A DNA stretch of 48,026 nucleotides, taken from NCBI GenBank assembly GCA_018883985.1, contig JAHLFA010000022.1, forward strand, positions 1 to 48,026, given 5' to 3'. Below, piece by piece: positions 21,034-28,126 of this stretch. The position numbers were made by a program, and so were the translations under genes. Each line of letters begins with the position of its first letter. The stretch's first letter is position 1. The notes beneath the pieces are model-generated. The model saw only the letters and a list, made by a program, of their open reading frames with translations. It had not been told where the DNA came from and did no database searches. The stretch is from Candidatus Ruminococcus intestinipullorum (GTDB taxonomy: Bacteria > Bacillota > Clostridia > Lachnospirales > Lachnospiraceae).

Positions 21034-21447
21034 CTAATTCCAATTCATTCCCTTTGACACCTTCAAACGATTCATCGCTCGTGCCAAAGAAGCCTGGGAA
21101 TGATAATACTCCTGAATACTTTGCTTTTGTCGAAGCCTTTCTTGTGCTCGCTCCTTTTGTTCCCTCGCATGGCGAATATCTATTTCTTCTGGACGCTCTG
21201 CAGTATCTACCAATAATGTGACACGATTATTCACAATTTCAGCAAACCCTCTTCCAAAAGCAACATCAATCCACTTTCCATCTTCAATTTGCATTCGCCC
21301 ATTGCCTATTAGAATTGCAACAACCATATTTTCATGGTTTGCCATAATTCCTTTTTGTCCATCAGCAGCTGGGATAATTAACTTTTTGCAACGACCTTCG
21401 TAAAACACTCTGTCACTTGCTATAATCTTTAAACCAAATGTATCCAT
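21034..21447 (-). CDS. atpC: F-type ATPase epsilon subunit
   Basis: 137 residues: N-terminal beta sandwich (GLKIIASDRVFYEGRCKKLIIPAADGQKGIMANHENMV region) and C-terminal helical hairpin (AREQKERAQERLRQKQS). It is part of the rotor stalk, and its C-terminal helices can inhibit ATP hydrolysis. ATG 21447, with GAGGG 7 nt upstream. Last gene of the atp operon, 11 nt after atpD. Confidence 0.95.
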   Translation of the reverse strand: MDTFGLKIIASDRVFYEGRCKKLIIPAADGQKGIMANHENMVVAILIGNGRMQIEDGKWIDVAFGRGFAEIVNNRVTLLVDTAERPEEIDIRHAREQKERAQERLRQKQSIQEYYHSQASLARAMNRLKVSKGMNWN

Positions 21448-21458
21448 ACGGCGTCCCT

Positions 21459-23758
<2,300 letters not shown>

Positions 23759-23759
23759 A

Positions 23760-25268
23760 TTAACACCTGCTCTTCTTGAATTCCTTAGCAACTTCTACAA
23801 TTTTCTCTATCATTTCATCCGTAAGAACTTTCTTTTCCTCAATTTCTGCTCCTACCTCTGGATATTCTGAATCAAAATAACGTAAAAGTTCCATCTGAAA
23901 TTGTTTTATTTTCATTTTCTCTATTCCAAGCATTACTTTATGTGTAGCTGCACACAATGTAATTACTTTTTCATGTAAGCTAAGTGGCTGACCCAATGGT
24001 TGTTTCAAAAGTTCCATTAATCCACCGCCATACGCCAACTGTTCTTTTGTCGAATCATCCAAATCAGAGCTAAATTGTGTAAACACTTCCATTTCTCTAT
24101 ATTGTGCCAAATCGATACGAATACTTCCTGAAGCCTTCTTCATAGCTTTTGTTTGTGCTGCACCTCCTACACGGGATACAGACAAACCAACATTGACTGC
24201 TGGTCGCATTCCAGCTGCAAACAAGTCACTTTCCAAGAAAATCTGACCGTCTGTTATAGAGATAACATTTGTAGGAATGTATGCTGAAACATCTCCAGCC
24301 TGCGTTTCAATAATTGGAAGTGCAGTAATAGAACCACCACCCAATTCATCACTTAATCGGCTAGAACGCTCTAAAAGTCTAGAATGCAAGTAAAAGACAT
24401 CTCCTGGATATGCTTCTCGTCCTGGAGAACGACCTAATAATAGTGATAACGCTCTGTAAGCAACTGCATGTTTTGATAAATCATCATATACAATCAATAC
24501 ATCTCTGCCCTGATACATAAAATGCTCTGCCAATGCAGTTCCTGCATAAGGTGCGATATATTGTAATGGAGCACAATCACTTGCTGTGGAAGATACTACA
24601 ATTGTATAGTCCATAGCTCCATTATTCTTCAAAGTGTTCACTACTTTAGCAACTGTAGATGCTTTCTGTCCAATTGCCACATAAACACAAATTACATTTT
24701 TTCCTTTTTGGTTCAAAATTGTATCTAACGCTATGGAAGTCTTCCCTGTTTGACGGTCACCAATGATTAGCTCTCTTTGTCCTCGCCCTATTGGAAACAT
24801 GGAATCAATAGAAAGAATTCCTGTTTCCATTGGAACGCTAACAGATTTTCGTTCAATAATACCAGGAGCTTCCTGCTCAATAGGACGGTAATCTTCTGAT
24901 TCGATTTCACCTTTCCCATCAATTGGTGCTCCCAATGCATCTACGACTCTTCCAATATATTTTTCTCCTACAGGAATTCCTGCTCTCTTTCCTGTACGAG
25001 CTACCTTAGTTCCTTCTTTAATCTCTGTATCTCGTCCAAAAAGAATACATCCAATCTCTTCCTTACGAATATCTTGTACCATTCCTTTTAAACCAGTGTC
25101 AAATGTAAGAATCTCTCCATACATAGCATGATCCAATCCGTAAATTGTAGCTATTCCATCTCCTACTGCAATAACTGTACCCACTTCACGATTTTGGCTA
25201 ATATTATCAAAATTCTCTATTTCTTCTTTTAAAATAGAAATAATTTCATCTGAACTGATTGAACTCAT
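23760..25268 (-). CDS. atpA: F-type ATPase alpha subunit
   Basis: 502 residues from ATG 25268 ([21 protein letters not shown]), behind TTGGAGGTG; the frame to 25328 only overlaps atpH. Non-catalytic nucleotide-binding subunit of F1. Walker A is [13 protein letters not shown], near residue 170. It also carries [23 protein letters not shown], with the conserved VSRVGG segment and the Arg of SVSR that reaches into the catalytic site. Confidence 0.98.
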
Positions 25269-25273
25269 GTTGT

Positions 25274-25807
25274 TCACCTCCAAGTTAATTTTTGTTCTAA
25301 TCTCTTCAAGCGCCCTTTTAAACTCCAATCATATTCATCATCACCAACAGAAAGAATAAATCCACCGATTAAACTATCATCTCTCTTAACTTCAATATGA
25401 ACGTCATTCATATTATATTTTTTACAAAGAAACTTTTTCATGCCATCCAACTGCGTTTCACTTGGAGGTTCAACACAACTTAATTTTGCATTTAAGAATT
25501 TGCGTTGCATATTGCAATAATTCTCATATGCTTCAAAGATTTCAAATATAATATCCATTCTCTGATATTTACAAACTACCTTTAGAAAGTTTTGTGTTTC
25601 TTTTGGAAATACTCTATCAATAATATTTAATTTCTTCTCTCCTGATATGGTGGGATTTTTAAATATAAATTGCAGCTGGGGAACCTTTTTAAATATCTCC
25701 TTTGTTTCCTCTATGCTCTTGAAAGAAATACCAAGATCATACAATACGCAAGCATATCGCTTTGCTGCCAATGAACAGCGTATTTGCTTATCTGTCTGTT
25801 GATTCAT
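25274..25807 (-). CDS. atpH: F-type ATPase delta subunit
   Basis: 177 residues if started at ATG 25807, which has GTAGGTG 6 nt upstream; a GTG at 25816 and ATG at 25813 are possible. Peripheral stalk protein that links subunit b to the top of F1. The N-terminal helical domain ([16 protein letters not shown]) and the C-terminal [20 protein letters not shown] are typical. It overlaps the end of atpF by 20 nt. Confidence 0.93.
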
Positions 25808-26297
25808 GAACATCACCTACTTCTTCCAAAAACTGATCATAGATTTTCTGATTTTCTGTTTCTGCTACCTCTTGCGTTATAATTTTAGTTGCCGCTGCCA
25901 TAGCTAAACCTGCAATCTCTGTTTGAAGTGCGTTCATAGTTTTTTCTCGTTCGATACGCATCTCTATCTTTGCAGCATCAATAATTTCTCCAGCCTTTTG
26001 TCCAGCTTCACTAAGAATACGGTCATATTCTTTTTTCGCATCGTTTCGGGCCTTTTCTACCATTTGCACAGTTTCTTCTCTTGCACCTTTTAGTGCCTCT
26101 TCATACTCTTCTTTCATTTTCATAGCATTTTCCTGTGCAGTTTGGGCATTCTGAAGACCTTCAGCAATCATCTGCTTTCTCTTCTCCATTACTTCTGTAA
26201 CTGGATTAATTAGAAATCGCCTTAATAAAAGAAACAAAATAATCAGGTTGATTATGGTCCAGAGAAAATTTAAGTTAAACTCCAGCACCTCTTCCAC
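25788..26297 (-). CDS. atpF: F-type ATPase b subunit
   Basis: 169 residues: one N-terminal membrane helix (NFLWTIINLIILFLLLRRFL, about 9-28) then a long charged helix, the b-dimer stalk. The start is uncertain. The GTG at 26297 lies only 2 nt after AAGGA, whereas the GTG at 26288 has AAGGTGG at good spacing and would shorten the protein by 3 residues. The gene lies 36 nt after atpE. Confidence 0.94.
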   Translation of the reverse strand: MEEVLEFNLNFLWTIINLIILFLLLRRFLINPVTEVMEKRKQMIAEGLQNAQTAQENAMKMKEEYEEALKGAREETVQMVEKARNDAKKEYDRILSEAGQKAGEIIDAAKIEMRIEREKTMNALQTEIAGLAMAAATKIITQEVAETENQKIYDQFLEEVGDVHESTDR

Positions 26298-26333: not shown

Positions 26334-27262
<929 letters not shown>

Positions 27263-27295
27263 ATTACTCCCTCCCTCTTGTCAAATTCTTCTAAG

Positions 27296-27324
27296 AGATT
27301 ACTCCTAAAAAATTGGTTTGTCAA
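27296..27324 (-). promoter_or_regulatory. Predicted promoter of the atp operon
   Basis: TTGACA (27319-27324) and TAATCT (27296-27301) on the minus strand are separated by 17 nt. The predicted start near 27289 gives a leader of about 27 nt ending in the ribosome binding site before the ACG codon. This placement independently supports translation beginning near 27262. Confidence 0.65.
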
Positions 27325-27547: not shown

Positions 27548-28126
27548 TTAGCATATTTTTGTTTTTAGTATTTGATATAGATGGGAAATAGGTAACCCAA
27601 CTACGTTATAATAGTCCCCTTCTATTTTCTCAATAAAAACTGCAAACTTACCTTGGATTCCATACCCTCCCGCTTTATCGTCACATTCTCCTGTCGCTAT
27701 ATAGTTTTTTATTTCTTCTTCAGACATAGCATGAACATACACCTCTGTTTTCACTACATCATTATGTACATTCACCTGTCCTGATTCATCATAATTCAAA
27801 ACTGCTATTCCTGTATAAACTTGATGTGCTTTCCCTTGAAGACTATGCAGCATCTCAAAAGCATTGGCTCTATCTTTTGGTTTTCCTAAAACCTTACCAT
27901 CCTGTACTACAATCGTATCTGCTCCTATTACAATTGTATTTTTTGCTTCTATTTCAGATGCTACATTCTCTGCCTTTCTCAACGCAAGCTCTGCTGCAAT
28001 ATCCTCTGGCTTCACACTTGTATATTCTTCTGCTTTATGGCTAATAAAGATTTCAAATTCCATCCCCATCTGCTCTAAAAGTTCTTTTCTTCTTGGAGAT
28101 GCTGACCCTAATATTATTTTTTTCAT
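27548..28126 (-). CDS. maf: Maf family nucleoside triphosphate pyrophosphatase
   Basis: 192 residues. Maf proteins hydrolyse non-canonical or modified NTPs (dTTP/UTP/pseudo-UTP type) to monophosphates. The signature GSASPRRKELLEQMG at the N-terminus, TIVIGADTIVVQDGKVLGKP in the middle, and the late GGYGIQGKFAVFIEKIEGDYYNVVGLPI are all present. ATG 28126 with GAAGGA 8 nt upstream. It is divergent from deoB across about 100 nt. Confidence 0.96.
   Translation of the reverse strand: MKKIILGSASPRRKELLEQMGMEFEIFISHKAEEYTSVKPEDIAAELALRKAENVASEIEAKNTIVIGADTIVVQDGKVLGKPKDRANAFEMLHSLQGKAHQVYTGIAVLNYDESGQVNVHNDVVKTEVYVHAMSEEEIKNYIATGECDDKAGGYGIQGKFAVFIEKIEGDYYNVVGLPISHLYQILKTKIC

Follow-up and report, generated by a model that had tools for sequence, protein, structure and literature searches.

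The window, the whole 48,026-nucleotide stretch of DNA that was analysed, carries on its minus strand an atp operon headed by atpB, the gene for subunit a of F0 (Table 1). Counted from an ACG codon, AtpB comprises 226 residues and belongs to NCBIfam family NF004486 (F0F1 subunit A), scoring 290.5 bits against a cut-off of 272, with its residues 7-226 aligned to profile positions 4-224; it also matches Pfam PF00119 (157.1 bits, cut-off 33.9). Downstream of atpB lie atpE, identified by family search, and then the rest of the atp operon. The other single-copy subunits of the complex have standard start codons in the window's list of open reading frames. Two further minus-strand frames, at 15-2495, are about 29% identical to atpD; they are perhaps V/A-type ATPase subunits, in which case the genome might encode another rotary ATPase close to the F-type operon.

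Table 1. Features at and around the atpB start in the window
Feature	Position	Strand	Evidence
ACG start codon, atpB	27260..27262	-	sequence; homologous codon ACG in 128/205 distinct loci
Shine-Dalgarno (SD) site GAGGGAGGGAG	27267..27277	-	GGAGG core 7 bases before ACG; duplex −12.2 kcal/mol; conservation jump
T at position −1	27263..27263	-	in 113/128 ACG loci; putative pairing with A37 of initiator tRNA
In-frame TGA upstream of start	27281..27283	-	sequence
atpB, F0 subunit a, 226 residues from ACG	26582..27262	-	NF004486, PF00119
First in-frame ATG, in first membrane helix, not start	27152..27154	-	sequence, ORF list
atpE, F0 subunit c, ATG start	26334..26555	-	ORF list, family search
Rest of atp operon, frames F, H, A, G, D, C	21034..26297	-	assigned by eye from gene order and sequence
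maf-like gene upstream, same strand	27548..28126	-	285 bases before ACG
Promoter-like TTGACA-17-TAATCT, weak second hexamer	27296..27324	-	letters; absent from promoter scan list

The atpB frame runs from an in-frame TGA to the stop codon at 26584-26582. The initial annotation had stated that no ATG, GTG or TTG lies between that TGA and the first ATG, and this is correct: none of the 42 intervening codons is one of the three. This ATG is codon 37 of AtpB; because it lies within the first hydrophobic stretch, it is unlikely to be the start. The gene is of the non-standard-start class: its start is not ATG, GTG or TTG, and the frame holds no usable standard start. What precedes the ACG is the SD site GAGGGAGGGAG, followed by TAAT. 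This is the sole ACG in the window with a strong SD (duplex energy of −10 kcal/mol or below), as judged by a scan of the first 60 codons of each open frame with at least 70 codons left; a second in-frame ACG of atpB, eight codons further on (27238), lacks one. Judged by comparison, atpB almost certainly starts at the ACG at 27262. The initial annotation had proposed this codon, directly behind its SD, and the arrangement recurs at the homologous place in relatives. It had also proposed a promoter, TTGACA-17-TAATCT: the letters are present, but TAATCT has only three of the six consensus bases and the promoter scan did not return the pair.

Relatives were sampled in two ways. The first sample, a contig scan that kept the best 80 of 448 relatives and so leans to the window's kin, was joined by a search of 61 genomes near the window's own. 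An ACG behind an SD occupies the homologous place in 109 of 110 loci (window copy and duplicates included), the exception, L076, having ATG; in four loci (L045, L058, L060, and L062) the ACG falls four codons downstream of the register shown. Species with ACG include Ruminococcus torques ATCC 27756, Coprococcus comes, Lacrimispora celerecrescens, Blautia parvula, and Claveliimonas bilis. Since these many assemblies include isolates and two records titled complete genome, no assembly error need be invoked. Record titles point to Lachnospiraceae, and we infer the family name for the remaining genomes searched.

The second sample surveyed the window's family. Among the matches listed, 326 of 397 genomes have a match to subunit a and 71 have none. 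Two kinds of subunit a occur: one at least 44% identical to the window's, the other about 35-40% identical. The survey took matches of at least 44% identity among those listed, leaving out extra fragments from genome G065 and a partial copy from G228; the second kind and the order-level loci (L240-L252 and L254-L258) were fetched and left out of scoring. Some family genomes (G062, G102, G278, and G450, for example) have both kinds, the second about 35% identical.

Each start was called on two criteria, the energy of its SD pairing and its alignment position. Hand calls replaced the scoring script's in eleven loci: ACG in L073, L075, L125, L130, L131, L133, L138, L142, L143, and L181; and ATG in L231. 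Seven of these ten ACG loci have an in-frame ATT directly before the ACG, which may share initiation. In all, the 240 loci have ACG 163 times, ATG 52, TTG 19, GTG five, and ATA once. When loci with the same sequence between 20 bases ahead of the start and 400 bases from it are collapsed into one, 205 remain: 128 ACG, 52 ATG, 19 TTG, five GTG, and one ATA. In the subset less biased toward the window's kin (the fetch at 44% identity or more, in which one locus, L253, does come from a genome near the window's), ACG is found in 54 of 130 loci, or 43 of 119 after removal of duplicates. Because the same SD-spaced site holds ATG, TTG, GTG, or once ATA in other lineages, the site is the start. The single ATA (L160) stands behind AGGAGGTGA, and its nearest ACG row in the tree is L162; it would be a second near-cognate start of atpB within the family.

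Two genomes of the window's own genus depart from this pattern. In G008, the atpB locus (L253) has internal stops with its SD and ACG intact, and atpD also has a TGA; the F-type ATPase there may be decaying. G001, 98% complete, has no atpB match, its ATPase beta-like proteins being 25-30% identical, and apparently is without an F-type ATPase of this kind.

How persistently ACG has been held can be read from an unrooted tree of 204 rows, built from AtpE, AtpF, and AtpB minus its first 16 residues (L253, its frame broken, is counted among the 128 ACG rows and left out of the tree). Scored as ACG against all other codons, the start changes 12 times on this tree; 200 shuffles gave a mean of 61.7 changes and a minimum of 52. 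As the tree is unrooted, these changes do not divide into gains and losses of ACG. The 84-row clade that includes the window has ACG in all 84 rows, with no change at the start. By comparison, the 41 fourfold-degenerate columns of this clade, the start column among them, changed 21.0 times on average (median 22). Five other conserved threonine columns that were printed changed 16-25 times and used all four codons; the start column, with no change, is therefore not an internal threonine. A larger clade of 119 rows has 116 ACG and three ATG, the start having changed three times by parsimony, each time to ATG. These three ATG rows sit inside the ACG clade, so the weak start is not indispensable. 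Taken together, the codon is conserved across relatives (128 of 205 distinct loci; every row of one clade), and we consider it very probable, from these sequence comparisons, that selection has retained the ACG start.

The surroundings of the start are conserved as well. Across the 128 ACG rows, information is at most 0.16 bits from −70 to −32 and 0.12-0.62 bits between −31 and −16, then rises abruptly to 1.66 bits at −15. This jump argues against an upstream start, a leader peptide, or a frameshift. (A leader peptide or fixed gene upstream was considered and rejected: information is at most 0.16 bits from −70 to −32, and the upstream neighbours of atpB vary between loci. A maf gene lies within 3 kb upstream in 16 of 124 ACG loci and in none of 71 canonical-start loci, flank lengths differing.) The ACG rows have strong, properly spaced SD sites, with a median pairing energy of −11.85 kcal/mol. 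ATG starts sampled from one relative (long frames with an SD chosen at −6 or better) average −9.56 kcal/mol, and 12% of the 467 starts sampled there reach −11.8. Position −1 is T in 113 of 128 ACG rows, including 11 of 11 outside the 119-row clade, as against 28 of the 76 rows whose start is ATG, GTG, or TTG. Esposito et al. reportedly found in 2003 that a U at −1, by pairing with A37 of the initiator tRNA, aids weak starts, and the U at −1 of atpB could pair in this way.

Predicted RNA structure between −30 and +30 also differs, with a mean folding energy of −3.9 kcal/mol in the ACG rows (121) versus −7.4 in the others (73). Part of the same difference is seen at atpE (−3.2 versus −5.1 kcal/mol); the atpB-minus-atpE difference between the groups has p = 0.006, kinship ignored. 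A kinship-aware test on five well-supported independent pairs gave no significant result: T at −1 went with ACG by 3.5 to 1.1, and weaker structure went with ACG by 2.4 to 0.1, whereas a stronger SD showed the opposite trend, 0.8 to 2.2. Structural compensation was rejected for the three ATG rows that sit within the clade, being seen in one of them: L135 is clearly more folded, the other two are not. With kinship allowed for, the case for a context that compensates for the weak ACG codon is weak, and such compensation is no more than suggestive.

ACG starts do not seem to be in general use. A scan of 851,707 bases and 820 ORF clusters (the window, L083, and 40 segments of 20 kb each taken from one relative, 29% of its genome) found no second convincing ACG start behind an SD. 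Of eight strong SD-ACG places that precede any good standard start, two belong to atpB (the window and L083). In four more, the codon that follows is itself a standard start, and the last two are a single doubtful place (L316) that lies behind a standard start in frame. General use of ACG was rejected on these grounds for the sample scanned, the six places other than atpB all being beside or behind standard starts. The same scan brought up infC, identified by TIGR00168 and encoding initiation factor 3 (IF3), with an ATT start. Its start is ATT in nine of nine genomes looked at (L302:17376-17879; L334-L341), and therefore near-cognate starts are used in particular genes of these bacteria. The base at −1 is not T in eight of these nine infC loci, unlike ACG atpB.

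Subunit a is present once per complex and subunit c in many copies, and in E. coli an excess of subunit a is harmful. (Among the matches listed, a literature search on this harm or on subunit stoichiometry gave nothing pertinent.) The best explanation, to which we assign a probability of roughly 0.85, is that atpB starts at ACG with the ordinary initiator tRNA, and that selection keeps this weak start. The strong SD seven bases upstream would place the ribosome on the ACG, and the initiator tRNA, anticodon CAU, would recognise it despite a second-base mismatch. A strong SD, a U at −1, and little RNA structure may partly offset the loss, initiation presumably staying weaker than at ATG. Weak initiation on this first gene of the operon would then limit the one-per-complex, potentially harmful subunit a, while the next gene, atpE, encodes the many-copy subunit c. 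A low dose of subunit a, which the initial annotation had also put forward, is plausible and is the purpose we prefer for the ACG, as somewhat more likely than not. However, since other single-copy subunits have standard starts, stoichiometry alone leaves the difference of atpB unexplained.

It is also possible, if less probable, that atpB is under IF3-dependent control like infC and Streptomyces sigR, its synthesis tracking the ratio of IF3 to ribosomes and not merely being low. IF3 disfavours any start but ATG, GTG, and TTG, and represses the GTC start of sigR (PMC5472188, excerpt); the uniform ATT of infC points the same way. A fixed low rate accounts for the sequence equally well. That IF3 regulates the atpB start in a physiologically meaningful way thus stays a tentative proposal, which may overlap with the low-dose reading. 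More speculative is the view that selection in a large group of gut bacteria has kept ACG on this one gene, over many genera, with poor initiation as its very function: the start would be gated by IF3, with the pairing of U at −1 and A37 as part of a site built for a mismatched codon, and synthesis of the proton channel subunit would be strictly coupled to the condition of the translation machinery.

Alternatively, the weak start might be a nearly neutral relic, ACG with a strong SD being good enough and not drifting back. The ATG, TTG, and GTG starts of other lineages fit this, as do the three ATG rows within the ACG clade. Set against it are the unchanged start of the 84 rows, where fourfold sites changed 21 times on average, and a published comparison that describes genome-wide selection towards AUG (PMC5622118, excerpt). 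A tolerated weak start should often revert, and a neutral near-cognate start should have returned to ATG more often than is seen in these sequences. We regard the relic as improbable.

A start elsewhere, either at the codon eight further on or at the ATG at 27154, is very improbable. Many relatives do have ATG at the former codon, and annotation programs that consider the usual starts alone would presumably pick it. However, this codon is ACG in the window and L002, ACA in L050, ATC in L054, CTA in L026, TTA in L075, and ACC in L070; where it is ATG, SD pairing is weak (the best seen being −8.1 kcal/mol, in L138). The ATG at 27154 is inside the first helix, and neither codon explains the strict SD-ACG.

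C-to-U editing of the RNA, turning ACG into AUG, deserves as little weight: we know of no case of start-codon C-to-U editing in bacteria, and the ATA of L160, near an ACG row, is not convertible to AUG by such a change. The precedent is the plant plastid, where ACG-to-AUG editing is well known; plastid ACG-start genes have ACG in their DNA as atpB does, and plastid RNA can be edited to AUG (PMC9845219, excerpt).

A special initiator tRNA with anticodon CGU as the reader of the ACG is scarcely credible. A loop pattern open to both CAT and CGT found a single initiator-type match per genome, CAT followed by A (the loop reads CTCATAA), in five of five genomes, though a tRNA with an unusual stem would escape this pattern, and not all of the genomes are complete (G000, 83.5%). 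ARAGORN, run on 30 tRNA loci of three genomes (part of their tRNAs), returned methionine tRNAs with cat only.

Finally, a single recent T-to-C change, as the initial annotation had supposed, or a base-calling error in this genome is refuted by the ACG of relatives (109 of 110 loci from many assemblies; 128 of the 205 distinct loci; all 84 rows of the clade). The comparison it had suggested, which anticipated ATG in relatives and ACG here, was run: the relatives have ACG too, and the change is old and kept.

Bacterial starts other than ATG, GTG, and TTG have been characterised in few cases (PMC5472188, excerpt). The closest parallel is Streptomyces sigR, which starts at GTC behind an extended SD. 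That start is shared by 32 of 34 species and repressed by IF3; it keeps the protein below its operon partner, and the gene was misannotated (PMC5472188, excerpt). Both sigR and atpB thus have a conserved non-standard start with a strong or extended SD. The sigR case concerns GTC, a sigma factor, and one genus, with IF3 repression shown by experiment, whereas that of atpB concerns ACG, an ATP synthase subunit, and many genera, and comes from sequence. As in atpB, the near-cognate start of infC is common to relatives. Nonetheless, the AUU of infC differs from AUG at the third base and the ACG of atpB at the second; and infC encodes the factor that discriminates against its own start, which atpB does not. 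The usual F0F1 atpB, including that of ATG, TTG, and GTG lineages in the same family, encodes a homologous protein from the same SD-spaced start with a standard codon. Conserved non-standard starts are therefore already known; here the codon is another, the gene is of another kind, and the range of species is wider. Among the matches listed from the open-licence literature, none describes a bacterial atpB with an ACG start, judging by titles and the beginnings of abstracts.

Gene finders that accept just the usual starts would presumably misplace the atpB start in many genomes from common gut bacteria. The presence of ACG, ATG, TTG, GTG, and ATA at one homologous site amounts to a natural experiment on what start codons are for. 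ACG is one transition from ATG, yet it has been held over many genera in a core energy gene; this would show selection for weak initiation.
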